A stretch of 25,011 nucleotides of DNA from a virus. The stretch is taken from the IMG/VR virus record IMGVR_UViG_3300042691_022473, positions 1 to 25,011 of that record, one strand, 5' to 3'. Below the pieces are notes generated by a model. The model searched no databases and had not been told where the DNA came from. It saw only the letters and a list, made by a program, of their open reading frames with translations. Of the stretch, positions 13,770-25,011 are shown piece after piece. Position numbers and translations under genes: made by a program. The number at the start of each line of letters is the position of its first letter. Position 1 is the stretch's first letter.

Positions 13770-16109
13770 TTATGCGATATTACTATCTAATGAAAATTTT
13801 TCGGACGCCGCAACCGCATTTGCCCTATGACTACTAACACCACCTCCAGCATTTATATCCGCAAAATAATTGGCCGCTTCCACTTTGTTTTTAAATTTAG
13901 GGAATGTATTTGCTGACTTTCCTTTAGTGAAAAATTTAATAGCCACTTCAGCTGCGACATTAGGGTCATTTACTAAATCAGGATTATTTACCAAATCTTT
14001 ACCAATCATATTCCCGTATTTTTCATAATTTTTCTTACCTGTTAATTGATTAAAACCTCTACCTCGATATTTCCAACCATCGCCACCTCCTTGATTTCCT
14101 ACAGTTTTTGCGTATACAACATTAAAAAATTTCTCTTGGTCTTTTTTTAGATTGTCTAATTCACTATCCGAGTACTTTGCAACTCTCGAACCAAAAATAC
14201 TTCTAATTCTTGAATTGGATGTTCCTGCGTATGATACTTCTGATTTTGGTTTGAATCCTGACTCTTTAGAAATGACTGATAATATTCCTATTTGAGTTAA
14301 CGGGTCAGTTATACCCGATTTATTCATATAATTAATCATTAAGTTAATGTTCTTTTTTTGTACGTCATCAAAATTACCTGTTAATTTAACTTTACCTGTT
14401 GATACATTTCCTCCATCTTCTAATCCAGGGTCCTCATCTTTTTTAATTGATGACATATTTGAATCATTAAAATCTTTTAACACTAAAATTGAAAACAACT
14501 TTGTTAAATCTTCACTTGACATAGTTCCGTCTTCATCTAATCCATATTTCTTTTGAAATTCCTTAACCGCCATTTCAGTTTCAGGCCCAAATTTACCGTC
14601 AACTCCCCATTTAGGTAATAAAAATCCTAAAAATTGTAGAGCAATTTGTAGTAATTCTACATCTCTATCTACAGGTATACTACTCTCAACACCCTTAAGA
14701 TTTTTGAGTTCTTTTTTTGATTGAACTAATTTATAAAATTCGCTTAGAATTTTATTTTCACCTTTTTCTGCTTTTTCTAAAGTGGTAATAACATTTTCTT
14801 TTTTAGTGTCAACAAACTCAGGATTATTTTTTATTAAATCGTTTGCCGAATCTACAATATTCTTATCAATTTCACTATCTCTTTTTAGAGGTGATGAATC
14901 ATCAGTAGGTGATGGTATATTTTCTCCAGTACCTCCTGCTGCACCTACAAATATTTTATCAGAATTTTTTAATAAATCTCTTAAATGTTTACCCCTTGGT
15001 AATCCAATATGTACATGGGTCATGTTATCATGACCGACCCATTCAGATATTTGTCCGATAACATCACCAACTTTAACTTTATCACCTTTTTGTAATTTAA
15101 CGTTTTTTAAGTGGGTATAGAAAATATCAGGATAACCATTGATACCACTAATTGACACTTGAGTACCAAATACTTTACCTGAATTTTTACCTGTGTCTCT
15201 AATTTTTTTTACCGTTCCTTCAGTGTATGAATTTACTATAGTTCCTGCAGGCGCAAAAATATCCCAAGCATTGTCAGATTCCCAATTACCAAACGCTCTT
15301 TTTCCGTGATTGGATGGACCATTTTCAATGTCAACTTTAAATTTACCACCTATAGTAGTTGTGGCTTCTTTTAGTGATAATCTTTTATCAACTAATTTAT
15401 TTTTCATATCCTTTATCTTTTCAAGATAACCATTTCGTCTAAGTATTTTAAATACTAAATTTTCTTCAGAATATTCACCACCTTTTTCTAAACCACATTC
15501 ACGATATTTTCTGATTTTATTTACATATTTTTTAATTAATGATTTGGCAGTATCAATATCTTCGTCTTGGATATTGTCATAAACTCCGTCTATGATTTTC
15601 ATCCATTGTCTTGCTTTTTCACTAATATTTTTTTTATCTATGTCTATAGATTCTTTTTTAGGTGACTCAATCCATTCATCATATAAAATGGAATATCTGG
15701 CATTATTTTTAACCTCCTCATTTTTTGATTCGTCCTCAACATATAATTCCACTTCATATCCAAAAATTTTAATATCATGTTTATGACCATATAATGTTTT
15801 TTTTAAGTGAAATAATTCATCGTACAAATTTTTAACATTTTCAGGAAATTGATTAAAATCTGCAATGATATGTAAGTCAACATCAGAATAATTAGACCAA
15901 TTAAAATTAGATAATGAACCTGTCATTACTATATCTGTAATAACAATATCAACATCTAAAAAACCAATAAAATCATTTGCAATTTCAATCAAGGTTTCCC
16001 TAACTTTAGGAACCATTTTAGAATTAGACGATTTTGGGTTAACCCATATTTTTGGATTAAGTGTGTCTTTTAGATTAAAACTTTTTAAGATGGATTGTAA
16101 ATTGCTCAT
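13770..16109 (-). CDS. Multidomain cell-wall hydrolase: nucleotidyltransferase-like + M23 + PG-binding + GH19-like
   Basis: A 779-residue modular protein. Residues 55-125 resemble a Pol-beta-type nucleotidyltransferase: GS at 64-65, DVDLH at 76-80, and a possible third carboxylate at Glu121. Residues 255-375 are an M23/LytM endopeptidase: HGKRAFGNW with His268, Asp283, YTH with His333, and the HVH pair 365/367. Residues 482-540 are a peptidoglycan-binding_1 domain (VDGKFGPETEMAVKEFQ). Residues 580-775 resemble GH19 lysozyme/chitinase: KESGF with probable catalytic Glu616, and GDGWKYRGRGFNQLTG (675-690). There is no signal peptide, so a tail- or baseplate-borne lysin is more likely than a secreted endolysin, although lysis is possible. 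The N-terminal nucleotidyltransferase-like part is unexpected. The ATG is preceded by a variant box (TATTTATG). Confidence 0.88.
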   Translation of the reverse strand: MSNLQSILKSFNLKDTLNPKIWVNPKSSNSKMVPKVRETLIEIANDFIGFLDVDIVITDIVMTGSLSNFNWSNYSDVDLHIIADFNQFPENVKNLYDELFHLKKTLYGHKHDIKIFGYEVELYVEDESKNEEVKNNARYSILYDEWIESPKKESIDIDKKNISEKARQWMKIIDGVYDNIQDEDIDTAKSLIKKYVNKIRKYRECGLEKGGEYSEENLVFKILRRNGYLEKIKDMKNKLVDKRLSLKEATTTIGGKFKVDIENGPSNHGKRAFGNWESDNAWDIFAPAGTIVNSYTEGTVKKIRDTGKNSGKVFGTQVSISGINGYPDIFYTHLKNVKLQKGDKVKVGDVIGQISEWVGHDNMTHVHIGLPRGKHLRDLLKNSDKIFVGAAGGTGENIPSPTDDSSPLKRDSEIDKNIVDSANDLIKNNPEFVDTKKENVITTLEKAEKGENKILSEFYKLVQSKKELKNLKGVESSIPVDRDVELLQIALQFLGFLLPKWGVDGKFGPETEMAVKEFQKKYGLDEDGTMSSEDLTKLFSILVLKDFNDSNMSSIKKDEDPGLEDGGNVSTGKVKLTGNFDDVQKKNINLMINYMNKSGITDPLTQIGILSVISKESGFKPKSEVSYAGTSNSRIRSIFGSRVAKYSDSELDNLKKDQEKFFNVVYAKTVGNQGGGDGWKYRGRGFNQLTGKKNYEKYGNMIGKDLVNNPDLVNDPNVAAEVAIKFFTKGKSANTFPKFKNKVEAANYFADINAGGGVSSHRANAVAASEKFSLDSNIA

Positions 16110-16682: not shown

Positions 16683-16715
16683 GTTGAAAATAGCGAATTA
16701 AACATTATATTTTTG
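16683..16715 (+). promoter_or_regulatory. Bacteroidota-type promoter for the clp gene
   Basis: The -7 element TATTTTTG (16708-16715) matches TAnnTTTG. A -33-like GTTG (16683-16686) lies 21 nt upstream. The start of transcription would fall near 16722, leaving a leader of only about 9 nt before the ATG at 16731. Confidence 0.55.
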
Positions 16716-16730
16716 AAAAACGTAATTAAT

Positions 16731-18782
16731 ATGATAGAATCTAAAGATGGTAGTAATCAAAACAAAGGTAAGGGTAATGAAAATTCGTCAACCCCTGTTT
16801 TGGACAATTTTAGTAGAGATTTGATAAAGTTAGCGGAAGAAGGTAAATTAGACCCTGTAATTGGTAGAGAACGTGAGATAACAAGAATTGCTCAAATCCT
16901 TTCAAGAAGAAAAAAGAATAATCCGATTATTATTGGTGAGCCAGGTTGTGGTAAAACCGCAATTGCTGAAGGATTAGCAATTAAAATTTTTAATGGTGAA
17001 TGCCCAAGAAATTTGACAGATAAAAGAATTGTTTCTTTAGATATGACATCTATTGTTGCGGGAACAAAATATAGAGGTCAGTTTGAGGAAAGAATGAAAG
17101 TAATTATTGACGAACTTCAGAACAATTCAAACATTATCGTTTTTATTGATGAAATACATACTATTGTTGGGGCAGGTAATTCATCAGGTTCCTTAGATGC
17201 GTCAAACATATTTAAACCCGCATTAGCGAGAGGTGAAATACAATGTATTGGGGCAACAACACTTGATGAATATAGAAAAAACTTTGAGAAAGATGGCGCT
17301 TTAGAAAGAAGATTCCAAAAAGTTATTGTTGATTCCGCAACTAAAGAAGAAACATTAGAAATTTTAAAACACGCCAAGGATAAGTATGAAACATATCATA
17401 AAGTGGCATATACCGATGAGATATTAAATTTGTGTGTTGATTTGGCGGAAAGATATATTACCGATAGAGAATTTCCTGATAAGGCTTTTGATATTATAGA
17501 TGAGGTAGGTGCGAGAAGTCAAGTAGATATAAAAATGCCTGAGATTATTGAGAAATTAAAAATGCAGGCTCAAGATATTAAACAAGAAAAGATTGAGGTA
17601 GTCAAAAAACAAAATTATGAAGAGGCCGCAAATTTAAGAGATAAGGAAAGAAGGATTTTAGATAGGTTGGATGCGGAAAAGAAAAAATTTGAGTCCGAAT
17701 TACAAAATCAAAAACGAGAAGTTAATATCGAGTTAGTATATGAAGTAGTGTCCAACATGACTAAAATTCCAATATCAAAATTAAATTCAGACGAGACCCA
17801 ATCTTTAGCTAAATTAGAAGAAAGTTTAGGAAATAAAGTTATTGGTCAATCTGAAGCGGTATCGAGAATTGCTAAATCCATTAGAAGAAATAGATTAGGT
17901 ATTAAGGACCCTAACAAACCAATCGGTTCATTTATTTTCTTAGGTTCAACAGGTGTTGGTAAAACATATTTGGCAAAACAATTGGCTAAGGAAATTTTTG
18001 GTAGTGAAGATAATCTAATTCGTGTAGATATGTCAGAGTTTCAAGAAAAACATACTATATCAAGATTAATTGGGGCTCCTCCAGGATATGTAGGTTATGA
18101 TGAAGGAGGTCAATTGACAGAACAAGTTAAAAATAAACCATATTCGGTAATCTTATTTGATGAAATTGAGAAGGCTAATAAAGATATATTCTCGTCTTTA
18201 TTACAGGTTTTAGATGATGGTCATATTACGGATGGTCTTGGTAGAAAAATAAACTTTAAAAACTGTGTAATTATAATGACTTCAAATTTAGGGGTTAAAA
18301 AGTTACAAGATTTTGGTTCAGGAGTTGGGTTCAAGAGTAATAACAACACTTATATTGAAGAGGAATATAAAAGGGACATGTTAAAGAAAGAACTTCAAAA
18401 ATTCTTTGCTCCTGAATTCTTAAATAGGATTGATGAGATTGTAATCTTTAACTCGTTGAAAAAAGAAGAAGTTAAATCTATCGTTAAATTAGAACTTGAT
18501 AAATTATTTACTAGACTAACTAATTTAAAATATCAAATATCTTATGATGAAACTATTTTAGAATTAATTTCTGAAGTAGGATTTGACGAGACTTATGGAG
18601 CAAGACCAATTAAAAGAGCAATCCAAGATAAAATTGAGGACTTTATTTCTGAAGAAGTGTTAAAGGGAAATATTTTAGAGGGGGTTGACTATACAATGAC
18701 AGTAGTCGATAAGGAAATTAAAATTGATGTTCTTATAGACAACAAACCCAAAAAAGGTAGAAAGAAAAAAGGGAGTGAGTAA
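16731..18782 (+). CDS. clpC-like: ClpC-like AAA+ unfoldase lacking the N-domain
   Basis: A 683-residue, two-ring Hsp100 ATPase that would unfold proteins and thread them into a protease. I use the ATG at 16731; an in-frame TTG at 16713 lies inside the -7 element. D1 shows Walker A GEPGCGKT (69-76), Walker B IVFIDE (136-141) and pore-loop KYRG (113-116). A ClpC-type UVR middle segment (about 280-315, NYEEAANLRDKERRILDRLD) follows. D2 shows GSTGVGKT (405-412), VILFDEIE (473-480), pore-loop GYVGY (452-456) and sensor-2 GARP (623-626). A VGF tripeptide (532-534) sits where ClpC carries its ClpP-docking loop. The usual two-repeat N-terminal Clp_N domain is absent; only a 20-residue polar tail precedes D1. 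No clpP is in the window, so host ClpP is the likely partner. It ends at a strong terminator. Confidence 0.93.
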   Translation: MIESKDGSNQNKGKGNENSSTPVLDNFSRDLIKLAEEGKLDPVIGREREITRIAQILSRRKKNNPIIIGEPGCGKTAIAEGLAIKIFNGECPRNLTDKRIVSLDMTSIVAGTKYRGQFEERMKVIIDELQNNSNIIVFIDEIHTIVGAGNSSGSLDASNIFKPALARGEIQCIGATTLDEYRKNFEKDGALERRFQKVIVDSATKEETLEILKHAKDKYETYHKVAYTDEILNLCVDLAERYITDREFPDKAFDIIDEVGARSQVDIKMPEIIEKLKMQAQDIKQEKIEVVKKQNYEEAANLRDKERRILDRLDAEKKKFESELQNQKREVNIELVYEVVSNMTKIPISKLNSDETQSLAKLEESLGNKVIGQSEAVSRIAKSIRRNRLGIKDPNKPIGSFIFLGSTGVGKTYLAKQLAKEIFGSEDNLIRVDMSEFQEKHTISRLIGAPPGYVGYDEGGQLTEQVKNKPYSVILFDEIEKANKDIFSSLLQVLDDGHITDGLGRKINFKNCVIIMTSNLGVKKLQDFGSGVGFKSNNNTYIEEEYKRDMLKKELQKFFAPEFLNRIDEIVIFNSLKKEEVKSIVKLELDKLFTRLTNLKYQISYDETILELISEVGFDETYGARPIKRAIQDKIEDFISEEVLKGNILEGVDYTMTVVDKEIKIDVLIDNKPKKGRKKKGSE

Positions 18783-18794: not shown

Positions 18795-19622
18795 TTATCC
18801 AAAAATCATGTATTGAGATTTTTTCTTGGATTTAAAAGTATATTTTTTATTACCCAGCTTCTCAATGATTTTTTTACCCGCATCAATTCCGTTGTAAACA
18901 TCCTCAACAACAACATACTCATCTCTTGTGTGGTAGTTATAATAACCTATTGAGAAATTAATACAAGAAAAATCAAAGATTTCTTTTAAAGCGTAAACAT
19001 CGGTAAATGGGTGTGATTGATATTTGTTACGTCTTTTAAAGTTCTCAGTTAAAACTTCGTCACATAATTGGAAGAACTCTCCATCCTTCTCATATAACTG
19101 AGTACCCATACAGTATTCCGTAACCATCCAATTACCAGGGGCATCAAATTCAATTGCATAACCTACATTAGAGAAAAAATCTTTATCGGCCTTTCTTGAA
19201 CCATGGCAACCTGTTTCTTCAGATACAAAAAATCCTGCCTTTAGATTTGGAATTACCTTCAATAATTCTAAACAAGCATAGATACCACACTTATCATCAC
19301 CACCAATACCTGTTGGTTGTCCATTATCGTTATACGCTTTAAGAGCGAGTTTTAGTTCTTTTTGAGCGTTAGGTAATTGTTCTTCTCTAACATTGATAGT
19401 GTCAATCTCATGAACTGTGTCAGTATGTGCAACTACACATGGGAAAAACTCTACGTTTTCATCAGTTTGTTTTGTTGCATATATGTTCTTGTGAGTATCG
19501 ACAACATATGGAATATTATTATCACTTAACCATTTAGTGATAAACTCAACCATCAAATCCTCTTTATAAGTTTTACTCGGAATTGATAGGACATTTTTTA
19601 AAAGTGTGTAATCTCTTTGCAT
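18795..19622 (-). CDS. Zinc aminopeptidase-like protein (M20/M28/M42 clan MH)
   Basis: A 275-residue cytosolic metallopeptidase of the two-zinc clan. All five metal ligands expected of the fold can be assigned: His66 and Asp68 in VVAHTDTV, Asp109 in GIGGDDKCG, Glu135/Glu136 in SEETGCHG, Asp160 in EFDAPGN, and His231 in YHTRDEYV. The GIGGDDKCGI segment resembles peptidase T and other M20B enzymes. Only about 70 residues separate Asp160 from His231, leaving no room for the M20 dimerisation domain, so it is a single-domain form. Likely reaction: removal of N-terminal residues from short peptides. It is convergent with clp across a shared terminator and 9 nt downstream of the 461-aa gene. The specific family is uncertain. 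Confidence 0.85.
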   Translation of the reverse strand: MQRDYTLLKNVLSIPSKTYKEDLMVEFITKWLSDNNIPYVVDTHKNIYATKQTDENVEFFPCVVAHTDTVHEIDTINVREEQLPNAQKELKLALKAYNDNGQPTGIGGDDKCGIYACLELLKVIPNLKAGFFVSEETGCHGSRKADKDFFSNVGYAIEFDAPGNWMVTEYCMGTQLYEKDGEFFQLCDEVLTENFKRRNKYQSHPFTDVYALKEIFDFSCINFSIGYYNYHTRDEYVVVEDVYNGIDAGKKIIEKLGNKKYTFKSKKKSQYMIFG

Positions 19623-19631
19623 ATTACAAAG

Positions 19632-21017
19632 TTACAACTTTTTTCGAGATTTCAAAGTTTTTCGTTCAAATAATTCCAAATTATATAAAAAAGAATTAAA
19701 CTCATCAAGAGTTAAACTTCTGTTTTTAGTACCCTCAAATTGTTTTTGAGTTACAATATGTATTTTATTTGTTTTGGGGTCAATATACCTAATATTAAAT
19801 TTAAGGTTTTTATCTTTTGGTGTTGGGTACCATTTGTCAAAGTCATATTTTTTAGTTACTTCACCACTAACTTTTTTAAACTCTTCTAAATTACTGAATC
19901 TGTCACTCTCCTCTATTTCCTCTATTATTTTATTTAATTGGTGTAATGCGTAATTGTTAAAGGATTCCGAATCAAAATCATTACAACCATATTCATACAT
20001 ATATTCTTCATAAGGACCGACGCTAAATTCATGAGCTAACTTACTTAACAATTCTTGTATTGTTAAATTATGGTTACCGTACATCTTGTAAAGAGATAAT
20101 AAAACACTTACTGTTGTGACATATTTATTAAACATATTTTTTTCAAAAATACCATAATTAATAAATTTGTCTTTTAACTCATTAGTTATTTCTTCTTTAG
20201 CAGCCCTTGACATACATTGTTCTTTTTCTGACTGATAGTCATCAACTATATTTTCAATTTGTCTCGGGAATGTACTAATTAATAGTTTAGCAATTTGTGG
20301 GTTAGTCGAGTCTTCCATCCTATTTAATTTTGGGTCGAAGTACGTCATTATTTCTAAAATTTTACGTCTGTTTTCATCATTAAGTTCATATAATAAATAA
20401 CCTTCATTCCAATCTTGATAAGCATAGTCAGAATGGTAAAACCCCATGTCACTATCATAGTATGAAAATAAATTCCTTAAAAACCAAATATCACCTTCCC
20501 CTAAATCAAATATTTTAAAATAGTCTTCGTCATAGTCAAATGTTAATTGTATCATACTTTTTCCTGGTGAAGTTTTATTAAAACGAAAACCACTAATTAA
20601 CTCATCATACCTGTTTAATGTATGGGCGGGGTATTCTTCACCATTTTGTATTTTTCTTAATATTTGGTATATATTTTGGGCGGGTATTGTTTTATAAACA
20701 AGATTTTCTATTTGGGGAAACCAATGGAAAAAAGTTGATGTTTCTATTTCTTGGTCTTCATCGTCTAAATAATGTACTCCATAATCACTCACACTAATAA
20801 CATAAGATTTAGTAGGTACCCAATCATTACCTTTTTTGTCAACAACTATAAATGTATCACCATATTTATGAGTGTTCCATTGTTTCCATAAAAAAGGAGG
20901 TCCAAAATATTTTGCGGATTCATATGAAAGACATTTTAGGAAGATAATATTATCATCTTCATATAAGATTTTACTACCCTTGTAGGCTTCGTTCTTTAAT
21001 TCTTCCTGTTCTGACAT
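19632..21017 (-). CDS. Unknown protein, 461 aa, between peptidase and tmRNA
   Basis: I do not recognise this protein. The frame is open back to 21125, but that extension overlaps the tmRNA gene and its promoter, so I start at the ATG at 21017 (MSEQEELKNEAYKGSKILYE). The N-terminal part (SKILYEDDNIIFLKCLSYES, then GDTFIVVDKKGNDWVPTKSY) resembles a beta-rich module I have seen in phage proteins that carry a TKWCTA motif, but the Cys is absent here. The middle is acidic and aromatic. The C-terminus is basic (ERKTLKSRKKL). No signal peptide is seen. It is probably cotranscribed with the peptidase gene. AT-rich sequence with a box-like TATTTATT lies upstream. Confidence 0.7.
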   Translation of the reverse strand: MSEQEELKNEAYKGSKILYEDDNIIFLKCLSYESAKYFGPPFLWKQWNTHKYGDTFIVVDKKGNDWVPTKSYVISVSDYGVHYLDDEDQEIETSTFFHWFPQIENLVYKTIPAQNIYQILRKIQNGEEYPAHTLNRYDELISGFRFNKTSPGKSMIQLTFDYDEDYFKIFDLGEGDIWFLRNLFSYYDSDMGFYHSDYAYQDWNEGYLLYELNDENRRKILEIMTYFDPKLNRMEDSTNPQIAKLLISTFPRQIENIVDDYQSEKEQCMSRAAKEEITNELKDKFINYGIFEKNMFNKYVTTVSVLLSLYKMYGNHNLTIQELLSKLAHEFSVGPYEEYMYEYGCNDFDSESFNNYALHQLNKIIEEIEESDRFSNLEEFKKVSGEVTKKYDFDKWYPTPKDKNLKFNIRYIDPKTNKIHIVTQKQFEGTKNRSLTLDEFNSFLYNLELFERKTLKSRKKL

Positions 21018-21042: not shown

Positions 21043-21073
21043 TTTGATAATAAGGATTTTCTTTGTATATTTG
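21043..21073 (+). promoter_or_regulatory. Strong Bacteroidota-type promoter for tmRNA
   Basis: Perfect -33 TTTG (21043-21046) and -7 TATATTTG (21066-21073) separated by 19 nt. This is the best match in the window to the Bacteroidota primary-sigma consensus. Transcription would start about 15-20 nt before the mature tmRNA 5' end. Confidence 0.8.
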
Positions 21074-21097
21074 TAAAACAAAAGTTCTTTAACATAT

Positions 21098-21495
21098 GGG
21101 GGTAACCTTGGAAATTGACTGGCATAGTTAGTTACTCGGGGCACGTCAAGGATGAATCTAACCTTGTTAAAATGGTTCAAAATCGATAAACGGCAACGTT
21201 ATCAACAAACTTTCTGCAGTAGGACTTGTTCGTACTGAGGAAGTGGCGGTAGCTTAATCAGATTAGGCGAAACCTTCGGGTCGGTGGACATATAACCCAG
21301 GAACAGAAGTCTTTACAAAGGTGTGGTTTCTACCCGAAAAGGAACAAGTGGAGGATTAGTTCTCAGTAAACCGAACCACTTTAAAAATAAGGGAATTGTG
21401 AAATTTCGGAACATTAGCTCAAATGTTGACCTAAGCGTGTAGTCCTTAGTAGGTGATGTGAGCAGGACGCGGTTCGACTCCGCATACCTCCACCA
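21098..21495 (+). ncRNA. ssrA: Transfer-messenger RNA (tmRNA)
   Basis: tmRNA rescues stalled ribosomes and tags the nascent chain for proteolysis. The 5' GGGGGTA (21098-21104) pairs over 7 bp (one G-U) with TACCTCC (21485-21491), followed by A and an encoded CCA. The tRNA-like half has GGAAATTGACTGGC near the 5' end and a T-arm with GCGGTTCGACTCCGC. Helix 2 pairs GCACGT with GCGTGT. A first pseudoknot forms from CAAGG/CCTTG and TGAATC/GGTTCA. Downstream, CTTTC..CAGTA pairs with TACTG..GGAAG as a helix-5 equivalent. The tag is ambiguous: a GCA-started frame reads ATLSTNFLQ then TAG inside helix 5, while a GGC-started frame reads 21 residues beginning GNVINKLSAV and ending EEVAVA then TAA. SmpB is not encoded in this window. 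Confidence 0.92.
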
Positions 21496-21501
21496 ATTAA
21501 A

Positions 21502-21538
21502 AAACCCCACCTTTTTAGGATGGGGTTTATTTTTTTTT
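21502..21538 (+). terminator. Intrinsic terminator after tmRNA
   Basis: AAACCCCA (21502-21509) pairs with TGGGGTTT (21521-21528), followed by a long T-run. It sits 6 nt after the tmRNA CCA end. It may also serve the convergent gene ending at 21562. Confidence 0.88.
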
Positions 21539-22448: not shown

Positions 22449-23015
22449 TTATCTTAAAATTACAACATGACCGTTATCATCGATTCTACCATCATTACCA
22501 AAAACATTGAATTGTATTTTCCAAGAATAAATACCATCTTGACATATATTACCCCCGTATGAACCATCCCATTTTCCATTAGGGTCATGAGACTCCCAAA
22601 TAATTTCGCCCCATCTATTAAAAATTAAAAATGTAAAATTATCAACATCAAATCCCTCAGTCATTATAGGTCCGAATAATTGGTTATGTTCATCACCATC
22701 AGGGGTAAATGTATTAGGTACCCAATAAGTGACTGAAGGACACTCACTAATAACAACTTGAAATGTTTCTTCAACATAACAAGGTCCATTTTCTCTTTTT
22801 AAAACTATATTATATGTTCCTTCATCACTAAAAGTGTATGTTAATTCTTCACTAAAATAAGGTAAACCATTAACTGTCCAAGTATTAGTACCGTCACTTG
22901 TTGATGTGGAAAAATAAGTAACGGTTTTAGATTCACCAGCACAAAGTTCTATTAACTGTTGTGCTGAAGAAACTAAGGACACTAACAAAAATAATATGAA
23001 AAGAGATATTCTCAT
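22449..23015 (-). CDS. Secreted protein with T9SS type B C-terminal sorting domain
   Basis: A 188-residue exported protein. A signal peptide (residues 1-18, ISLFILFLLVSLVSSA) is followed by an Ig/PKD-like domain (about 20-90). The C-terminal domain (about 97-188) belongs to the gliding-motility-associated / type IX secretion type B sorting family (CHU_C type). Its markers are WVPNTFTPDGDEHN, FNRWGEIIWES, the segment WDGSYGGNICQDGIYSWKI and the ending GHVVILR. In Bacteroidota this domain sends Sec-exported proteins through the outer membrane to the surface or medium. It is the last of three adjacent genes for signal-peptide proteins; its ATG directly follows the TAA of the gene upstream. A phage-encoded host-surface or released protein is implied; its target is unknown. 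Confidence 0.88.
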   Translation of the reverse strand: MRISLFILFLLVSLVSSAQQLIELCAGESKTVTYFSTSTSDGTNTWTVNGLPYFSEELTYTFSDEGTYNIVLKRENGPCYVEETFQVVISECPSVTYWVPNTFTPDGDEHNQLFGPIMTEGFDVDNFTFLIFNRWGEIIWESHDPNGKWDGSYGGNICQDGIYSWKIQFNVFGNDGRIDDNGHVVILR

Positions 23016-23597
23016 TTAGTTATGTTGTATTGGAGACAATGTTGGTGTTCCATAAACAGGTACAACAACTTGTGTTGAGAATGTACATCCTCCAGCAGTT
23101 ATTGTATATGTAACCGTGGAAGTTGCGTTTGTTCCATTAGCCACGTTGTCAGGACAAAATTGATTCCCAACAACACCTGTACCTGACCATGTACCACCTG
23201 CAGGGGTACCAACTAAATTAACACAAGGGTCTGATTCACAAAATGGTCCTAACGCAGTTATTGTAGGAATAACTTGATATATTAACACATTTAAATTCAC
23301 AGGTGTTGCGGGACAGTTTGCAGGTGCGGGAGAACTGTATGTCACTGAAACTCCGTTAGTAATTAACCCAGGAGATGCGGTTGACCAATTGACACTGATG
23401 GAGTTGGTTCCTTGACCCGCAGTAATAACACCTGGTGACGTGACAGTCCATGTATATGTTCCCGAACCTACTGAAGGTACTGTGTAAGTAGATAATGCAG
23501 TTGACTGATAACATACCGTATCAGGGTTAACTGTTGTTAGTTGTGAAAATGAAATCCCCGAAATCATCATCATCATTAAAAATAAAACCCTTTTCAT
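23016..23597 (-). CDS. Secreted PKD/Ig-like protein, 193 aa
   Basis: An exported protein with a clear signal peptide (MKRVLFLMMMMISGISFS, cut near residue 19). Two Bacteroidota-style PKD/Ig-like units follow. The first contains GTYTWTVTSPGVITAGQGTN and ISVNWST; the second contains GGTWSGTGVVGNQFCP and VTYTITAGGC. Several cysteines suggest disulphides. It has no T9SS sorting domain of its own. It ends with SPIQHN, very similar to the end of the gene upstream (GPINHN). It abuts the T9SS gene without a gap and lies 11 nt after the upstream gene. It may be a surface partner of the T9SS-type protein; no function is known. Confidence 0.8.
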   Translation of the reverse strand: MKRVLFLMMMMISGISFSQLTTVNPDTVCYQSTALSTYTVPSVGSGTYTWTVTSPGVITAGQGTNSISVNWSTASPGLITNGVSVTYSSPAPANCPATPVNLNVLIYQVIPTITALGPFCESDPCVNLVGTPAGGTWSGTGVVGNQFCPDNVANGTNATSTVTYTITAGGCTFSTQVVVPVYGTPTLSPIQHN

Positions 23598-23608: not shown

Positions 23609-24205
23609 TTAATTATGGTTTATAGGACCCAATACTATTGGGGTTGCATTTATTGTTCCGTTAAACACCGTAAGTGGTGTAACAACATCACAAGAATTAT
23701 TATTATAACTACCCCATAATCCATCAGGACCTGCGGTAACTTGTAAAAGTAAACTTTGTGGGGTACATACATTTGCAACAACTAATGTGACACAAAAAGT
23801 CCAAGTACATGAACCTGAGTCCCCAAAGTCATTACCTGGGTTGCCGTCTATCGACAAATCAAAAAAATATCCAGGACCTACCGTTACAATAGGTGTTGTT
23901 GTTGATGTAACTGATGTTTTCCACACCCATTGTCCACCTGTAGAATTTCCACCACAATTAGCGGGTGCCGTTTGAGGTGATACCGATGCCCATCCCGCAC
24001 CTAAAGTTAAATCAAATCCCTCAATCCAATTAGTACCCGCTTGAGTATAACCAACCATGGTATAACACATGGTAACTGTTTGTCCAGGTTGGTAAGTTCC
24101 TCCTACGGGAGGTGGAGTTAATGTAAATGACTGAGTACCCGTACATTGTGAATGGGTTAATGTCATCAAAGAAATAAAAAATAATGTAATTACATATTTT
24201 ATCAT
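23609..24205 (-). CDS. Secreted beta-rich protein, 198 aa
   Basis: An exported protein with a signal peptide (MIKYVITLFFISLMTLTHS, cut before QC or after S). The mature part is Gly/Thr/Pro-rich and likely beta-sandwich, with GGTYQPGQTVTMCYTM near the start and CTWTFCVTLVVANVC in the middle. An SQC at the cleavage site could alternatively mark a lipoprotein, but the lipobox is poor. It is the first of three consecutive signal-peptide genes. Its C-terminus IVLGPINHN resembles that of the next gene. A one-base variant of the upstream box (TATTTATT) lies a few nt before the ATG. The family is not recognised. Confidence 0.75.
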   Translation of the reverse strand: MIKYVITLFFISLMTLTHSQCTGTQSFTLTPPPVGGTYQPGQTVTMCYTMVGYTQAGTNWIEGFDLTLGAGWASVSPQTAPANCGGNSTGGQWVWKTSVTSTTTPIVTVGPGYFFDLSIDGNPGNDFGDSGSCTWTFCVTLVVANVCTPQSLLLQVTAGPDGLWGSYNNNSCDVVTPLTVFNGTINATPIVLGPINHN

Positions 24206-24332: not shown

Positions 24333-24707
24333 GTTTGACCTAGGAATCTAAACCTACCGAGTTGTTAGTGAGACAACTACAGACGCCTATAACGTTGGGC
24401 GGTGACTAGTATTTCACGACTATCTTGTTTATTTTGTTTTCCGTTTTAAGACCTAAACACTGTGGTTATCATAGTTCCCACATCTAAAAAGAGGTCCCTT
24501 TCCAATTTTTTTCTCAAACTCCTTCTGTCTTTGGTTGACACCTCAAGGTAGTACTCATTTTTTATTAATTTTTAAGGATTAAAATTGGTCGTTATCTACT
24601 ACTGAACAATCACCAAAAACCTTTACGAAAATTTTGAAGGTTAGTTTATACTCATAACTTCACGGACTATCGTTAATTACCGACCTATCATGTTTGGAGT
24701 CACTTAG
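24333..24707 (-). other. Non-coding stretch, apparently structured, function unknown
   Basis: There is no plausible reading frame on either strand. On the minus strand the stretch lies between tRNA-Met and a strong terminator. Two hairpins are visible near its 3' end: AGTTGT/ACAACT with a 7-nt loop (24360-24378) and CGCC/GGCG with a 10-nt loop (24384-24401). The phrase GATAGTC(C)GTGAA occurs twice, near 24410-24424 and near 24658-24671. I found no intact tRNA, RNase P, 6S or group I intron core by eye. Confidence 0.45.
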
Positions 24708-24779
24708 TAGCGGGAGAAGGATTCGAACCTTCGACCTCAAGGTTATGAGCCTTGCGAGCTTCCTCTGCTCTATCCCACA
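24708..24779 (-). tRNA. trnM: tRNA-Met (anticodon CAT)
   Basis: A cloverleaf of about 72 nt on the minus strand. The D-arm is GAGC/GCTC and the anticodon arm CAAGG/CCTTG around CTCATAA (CAT anticodon, complement at 24745-24747). The T-arm is GAAGG-TTCGAAT-CCTTC. The acceptor pairs TGTGGGA with TCCCGCT, with a mismatch at the outermost position and one G-U. CCA is not encoded, unlike in the tmRNA. Elongator Met is more likely than initiator, because the initiator's three G-C pairs in the anticodon stem are absent; a CAT tRNA modified to read Ile (ATA) is an alternative. Confidence 0.88.
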
Positions 24780-25011
24780 ATATTGGCTAAGGTTGAGATT
24801 ACACCTGTTATTTGAGAACCTTTTGAGTCATTATTGTTTCTACTCGTATCCACTTCCTTTTGAGAAGTATTTCTCAGTGACGGTTATTTAGGTGAACCAC
24901 TCCTTGAGGTCTAATCTACTCTCCTATTACTCAACTCTCTTTGAGGATGCCTCCCCAACTAGTCCTTGCGGGATTAGAGGTCTTTGGTAAAAATACACTC
25001 AGCCTTGGGAG
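24780..25011. other. Non-coding stretch to the window edge
   Basis: No reading frame or second tRNA is seen up to the edge. The minus strand is purine-rich, with short self-complementary pieces such as GAGGCATCCTC and CTAATCCCGCAAGGACTAG. It is probably the upstream part of the same RNA transcript as the tRNA-Met. Confidence 0.4.

Follow-up and report, generated by a model that had tools for sequence, protein, structure and literature searches.

A one-piece tmRNA gene with a long tag in a group of T4-like phages, its ClpC-like neighbour and its linkage to GOLLD RNA

In trans-translation, SmpB brings alanine-charged tmRNA to ribosomes that lack a codon in the A site, and a tag is added before normal termination. 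The tags of Bacteroidota are nine residues long and follow the pattern GExNYALAA. In the tmRNA database the commonest tag length is 10 residues, and phages are the source of 79 of the 97,179 unique sequences (PMC11915505). Known phage tmRNAs include those of the mycobacteriophage Bxz1 group, Wildcat, Bacillus phage G and the OM43 phage Melnitz (PMC4131195, PMC9004378), and there are huge phages that encode tmRNA together with SmpB (PMC7162821). An RNA with only the tRNA-like domain, like the one of mycobacteriophage DS6A, acts as an inhibitor of tmRNA, possibly through titration of SmpB (PMC4131195, PMC11915505).

The gene described here was found in a window of 25,011 bases, a linear fragment that is a whole IMG/VR record. 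The phage had been taken to be T4-like from the sequence, and Pfam searches agree, with a T4-type portal (Portal_T4, E 6.7e-77), a large terminase (Terminase_6N, E 4.4e-13) and an S77 prohead protease (Peptidase_S77, E 7.6e-23). As in the Bxz1 group, Wildcat, phage G and Melnitz, the tmRNA is phage-encoded, and SmpB, also found in huge phages, is present in some relatives. The Melnitz tmRNA is two-piece and of alphaproteobacterial type, while that of the window is one-piece. The tag-less RNA of DS6A has a phage-encoded tRNA-like domain in common with it, to which the window tmRNA adds a selected tag frame and pseudoknots. A shared phage-specific long tag, a ClpC neighbour and a linkage to GOLLD RNA are not described for the phage tmRNAs of PMC4131195, PMC9004378 and PMC7162821. 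What sets the gene apart from the catalogued phage tmRNAs is the long group-specific tag and the gene block around it. The sequence-only reading had called tmRNA uncommon in phages, which is true of the catalogued ones by the database count above but not of this group, where the gene was present in 43 of 43 ClpC-anchored loci extending at least 7.5 kb past ClpC.

The tmRNA gene and its relatives

A complete tmRNA had been proposed at 21098-21495, with a covariance score below threshold named as one of two results that would speak against it. With the tmRNA model RF00023, cmscan returned exactly these coordinates (plus strand) with a score of 78.5 bits (E 3.5e-29; gathering cut-off 47), matching positions 1-374 of the 374 of the model, and this was the sole tmRNA found in the window. 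ARAGORN, the other check suggested, did not call a tmRNA in the window, though it called seven relatives; it missed the gene because of its divergence, and the covariance model and the relatives back the assignment. This program is used in phage surveys and has a blind spot here, with 7 loci called versus dozens of tmRNA genes found by BLAST.

The pairings that had been drawn by hand for the acceptor stem, CCA, T-arm, helix 2, first pseudoknot and helix-5 hairpin agree with the covariance model. The 5' strand of the acceptor stem (GGGGGTA, 21098-21104) pairs with 21485-21491, the first part of a segment at 21485-21495 (TACCTCC, discriminator A and CCA), so that the stem reads GGGGGUA/UACCUCC with a G3-U70 pair, followed by encoded ACCA. 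The T-arm (GCGG-TTCGACT-CCGC, 21469-21483), taken from the cmscan alignment and paired in relatives despite their differing T-stems, has a loop TTCGACT that fits TTCRA; its fifth, outermost pair is C-A and open. Helix 2 is long and was aligned by the model with a few mismatches. Pseudoknot PK1 (21147-21179) is formed by CAAGG (21147-21151) with CCTTG (21162-21166) and TGAATC (21153-21158) with GGTTCA (21174-21179). A hairpin of six pairs, AACAUU/AAUGUU (21410-21427), in the region of helix 5 or the last pseudoknot, stands just before the conserved CCUAAGCGUGUAG. Judged by every sequence-level feature of the family, the gene is a member of the one-piece tmRNAs.

Relatives were collected as 177 IMG/VR loci through searches with the ClpC-like protein, the terminase and a GOLLD pattern, many of the records being near-duplicates or fragments, so that counts among them are not independent events and the absence of a gene from a record is not proof that the phage lacks it. 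BLAST detected homologous tmRNA genes in dozens of these loci, and 51 distinct regions were aligned; a DNA search of the INPHARED phages found no related tmRNA. The acceptor stem occurs in 20 forms among 102 distinct related genes (GGGTCCG/CGGATCC, GGGCCTA/TAGGTCC, GGGAGTG/CACTTCC and GGGGAGT/ACTCTCC among others), and compensatory changes are numerous. All but one of the 102 retain G3-U70, the 5' end having probably been picked wrongly in the exception (L350). By inspection of the alignment, both sides of the PK1 stems, of the T-stem and of the AACATT/AATGTT hairpin change while the pairing stays. In an attempt at consensus folding of the whole gene its middle aligned badly among relatives.

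At the 3' end, the T-stem and the sequence past the acceptor stem vary widely even among close relatives, as though a recombination or integration site lay here, and the full CCA is encoded in 50 of the 102 genes. A few genes (L310, L311, L314, L341 and possibly L293) have the T-loop GGCRGYA in place of TTCRA. This loop was accompanied by a change of the D-loop GG to AG in 4/4 cases, while GG was present in 86/86 genes with TTCRA and was retained with other odd T-loops (AGTCGGA, ATCGTGA, CTCGGA). The GGCRGYA/AG pair has the appearance of a tmRNA elbow that was exchanged and compensated.

The host-type promoter that had been seen upstream is TTG-N19-TATATTTG (21044-21073, plus strand), of the Bacteroidota type, and its motif precedes the gene in 73 of 86 distinct relatives versus 1.1 expected from shuffles. 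Between it and the mature 5' end we place a leader (21074-21097, plus strand) that is presumably removed by RNase P. The terminator was also recovered, at 21502-21538 (plus strand), as a terminator-like hairpin of 10 pairs (21502-21528) with a T-run after it, and it probably serves both strands.

The tag and its candidate reader

The tag frame (21192-21257, plus strand) encodes the 21 residues GNVINKLSAVGLVRTEEVAVA followed by a TAA stop, when read in the frame of the homologous tags called by ARAGORN in relatives (GNVINKLSAVGLIRTEESVAVA, GNIFNKLSAVGLIRTEENISVA, GNVINKLSAVGLVRTEETVEVA, GNVINKLSAVGLIRAEEAVVA and GNVLNKMATIGLIREDAAVAA; seven loci). This frame is open over 21-22 codons in 51/51 aligned distinct regions. 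The DNA pattern of the tag matches at least 119 IMG/VR contigs, and among the matches listed 79 of 80 contigs have a tag of 21-22 residues, the exception being cut by the contig end. In 34 distinct tag frames that were selected by homology, and hence not by the frame pattern itself, G11, L12, R14, the final alanine (A22) and the stop are invariant, and the inner motif GNVxNKxxxxGLxR is conserved across divergent phages. The pN/pS ratio in these 34 genes was 0.43 for the tag frame and 0.85 and 2.6 for the other two; within the tag it was 0.33 and 0.39 for the first 14 codons and 0.63 for the last 8. These ratios show purifying selection on the tag. The alternative frames ACGGCAACG...TAG and CGGCAACGT...TGA were rejected, as they are unconserved and carry stops in 27-28 of the 34 relatives.

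For comparison, the pattern GExNYALAA was used to retrieve 12 IMG/VR contigs, which stand in for Bacteroidota and are not the true host. ARAGORN called tmRNAs in eight of them, with the tags GENNYALAA, GETNYALAA and GEENYALAA, and a ninth contains GESNYALAA in an evident tmRNA. The window gene resembles the one-piece ssrA of Bacteroidota in domain order, in the initial glycine of the tag, in a CCTAAGCNTGTAG-type core, in its similar length and in its Bacteroidota promoter. The tags themselves are unlike: those of the phages, with 21-22 residues against 9 in these stand-in contigs, are over twice as long, contain an inner GLxR that has no counterpart in the short ones and end in VxA rather than ALAA. 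The window tag GNVINKLSAVGLVRTEEVAVA thus departs from GExNYALAA, and the earlier impression that it does not match the ALAA-ending tags was correct; a different routing of the tagged proteins, which had been put forward with it, is plausible. The start of a divergent phage tag, GETIAKLSAVGLIRSEEVVTA (L079), resembles that of a host tag, and the long tag may thus descend from a Bacteroidota tmRNA by lengthening.

The gene order in the window is a ClpC-like AAA+ unfoldase (plus strand), an M20-like peptidase and an orphan protein of 461 residues (both minus), and the tmRNA (plus), followed by several minus-strand genes and then by tRNA-Met and GOLLD RNA, also minus. The unfoldase (16713-18782; Pfam AAA_2, AAA_lid_9, UVR and ClpB_D2-small; PHROG 4871) has the build of a ClpC, with two AAA modules, a middle UVR motif and the tripeptide VGF for ClpP. 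No Pfam match to Clp_N, the adaptor-binding domain at the N terminus, was found in it, and the protein begins just ahead of the first AAA module. The loop VGF, IGF or LGF docks ClpC on ClpP, and one of the three is kept in 65/65 distinct ClpC-like proteins examined. The tmRNA gene lies 2.0-7.1 kb downstream of ClpC in the 62 loci that contain it, and 2.3 kb off on the same strand in the window, with two opposite-strand genes between them, so there is no operon. Shared ancestry alone can explain the constancy of this neighbourhood. A search of GTDB genomes with the window ClpC returned only bacterial ClpC proteins of at most 51% identity and gave no host clue.

The M20-like peptidase (18795-19622, minus strand; PHROG 4191, E 2.5e-41; Pfam M20 just under the cut-off) belongs to the conserved block and has 209 related loci. 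The orphan protein (19632-21017, minus strand), divergent from the tmRNA, has 217 related loci at about 22-100% identity; it evolves fast and yet stays beside the tmRNA in over 200 loci. Its predicted fold is confident (pLDDT 89), but neither Pfam and PHROGs nor a comparison of the fold model with the PDB gave any match. A fold like that of a Clp adaptor or of SmpB was sought for it without a match; it could be a regulator or adaptor.

Taken together, the locus probably encodes a working tmRNA through which the phage conducts trans-translation itself, with a private degron that is dealt with by a Clp protease, and we hold this reading with fair confidence. Host alanyl-tRNA synthetase would charge the phage tmRNA, which during infection would bind SmpB, the host's or in some relatives the phage's own, and enter ribosomes that have stalled on broken mRNA. 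It would then append GNVINKLSAVGLVRTEEVAVA to the unfinished proteins. The tag would be read by a Clp protease, the first candidate being the neighbouring phage ClpC without N domain, working with host or phage ClpP, and the payoff would be the recycling of ribosomes and amino acids under phage control while host mRNA is destroyed. The tag is most likely a phage-specific degron, since it differs from the nine-residue Bacteroidota type (as represented by the IMG/VR contigs rather than by the true host's ssrA) and is common to the phage group, and since its alanine end is invariant. We hypothesize that the phage ClpC degrades the tagged proteins, in view of its neighbourhood, its lost adaptor domain and its kept ClpP loop. 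If this is right, a widespread group of phages sets the fate of proteins in infected cells through a degradation signal of its own instead of the host's, and the tag and the neighbouring ClpC would be an orthogonal degron and unfoldase. Against a private degron stands the fact that SmpB or ClpP was seen in a minority of records (ClpP in 7 of 46 related records), many of them fragments.

The same scarcity of SmpB and ClpP agrees with another, though unlikely, explanation in which the phage gene rescues ribosomes only as a supplement to the tmRNA of the host, host ClpXP degrades the tagged proteins, nothing reads the long tag specifically and the neighbouring ClpC serves another task. The V-x-A end might be readable by host ClpXP, the C-terminus being small and hydrophobic, with alanine last in 34/34 tags. 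ClpC and tmRNA are also in separate transcription units. Nevertheless the conservation of GNVxNKxxxxGLxR exceeds what a plain C-terminal signal for ClpX needs, and nine residues are enough in the tmRNAs of the Bacteroidota type. The inner GLxR is the part of the tag most in need of a reader.

That the phage tmRNA acts as a competitor, taking SmpB and stalled ribosomes away from the host tmRNA while host proteases read its tag poorly, seems to us improbable. Unfinished phage proteins would then be spared or the quality control of the host blunted. An inhibitory tRNA-like-domain RNA like that of DS6A is a precedent (PMC4131195, PMC11915505), and a tag departing from ALAA would suit such a role. 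However, the tag is under selection although a pure competitor could do without one, its alanine end never varies, and the SmpB of some relatives would undo the titration. A decayed relic of an acquired host gene, to which the open C-A pair of the window T-stem and the unusual T-loops of some relatives could point, is hardly credible, being contradicted by covariation with compensatory changes in all stems, by purifying selection, by the conserved tag and promoter and by the presence of the tmRNA in all informative contigs.

GOLLD RNA and SmpB next to the tmRNA

GOLLD forms an RNA cage of 14 copies, has no known function and is often found near tRNA genes; ribosomes have been reported bound to it in pull-downs (PMC12286853). 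The window ends within such an RNA and contains its 3' part (24790-25011, minus strand), which scored 184 bits with RF02032 (cut-off 150, E 1.5e-50) despite being cut by the contig end. A tRNA with a CAT anticodon (24707-24779, minus strand; ARAGORN and RF00005) follows 11 bases downstream, so that the RNA is like the GOLLD of PMC12286853 both in matching the covariance model and in its adjoining tRNA. In the nearest relatives (G032-G034) GOLLD is full length and at the same place, and its score exceeded the cut-off for 37 of 46 records and for 11 of 15.

In 42 of the 44 IMG/VR records that contain both RNAs, GOLLD and tmRNA are convergent with 123-3400 bases between them, and in the window this distance is 3.3 kb. 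Chance linkage was rejected for these 42, and the arrangement may reflect one ancestral gene order. The two exceptions are G047 and G048, with distances of 121 and 194 kb. Nine records have a tmRNA without GOLLD, four of which (G017, G018, G020 and G028) belong to one tag subgroup.

A gene for SmpB was detected in 11 of 46 records and in 4 of 15. It lies between tmRNA and GOLLD, on the strand of GOLLD, in 10 of the 13 records with all three. In G021, G023-G026 and G048 it follows GOLLD on that strand at a distance of 91-95 bases; in the last of these it stands 95 bases past GOLLD even though the tmRNA is 194 kb away.

Two huge phages of 635 and 642 kb, LR745206.1 (near 420875-425251) and LR756502.1 (near 434685-442574), have GOLLD 1.9 and 5.4 kb, respectively, from a ClpC 57% identical to that of the window. 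Their SmpB is elsewhere in the genome, their terminases are unrelated, and no one-piece tmRNA above the cut-off was found in a search for this form only. The linkage of GOLLD to tmRNA is therefore not universal, and the proximity of GOLLD to ClpC in these two genomes fits a loose functional neighbourhood and chance equally well.

The literature searched seems to contain no description of GOLLD being linked to tmRNA and SmpB: tmRNA is unmentioned in the GOLLD study of Kretsch et al. 2025 (PMC12286853), and GOLLD and tmRNA are treated apart in PMC6582537. For an RNA of known structure and unknown function, so steady an association with tmRNA and SmpB is a concrete lead. The whole block might be a phage-owned system for ribosome rescue and proteolysis, made of a tmRNA with a private degron, SmpB, the ClpC without N domain and sometimes ClpP, in which the GOLLD nanocage is a working part, for example by holding or staging tmRNA, SmpB, tRNAs or ribosomal particles. 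We regard this extension as quite doubtful; if true, GOLLD would for the first time be placed in a functional context.

The minus-strand genes between tmRNA and GOLLD in the window include three for secreted-looking proteins (22449-23015, 23016-23597 and 23609-24205), and in the first of them there is a type IX secretion domain (CHU_C), which points to a Bacteroidota host. On the other side of the block, also on the minus strand, a single protein (13770-16109) joins M23 peptidase, peptidoglycan-binding and chitinase-like (GH19) domains and probably serves to degrade the cell wall, either in the virion or in lysis.
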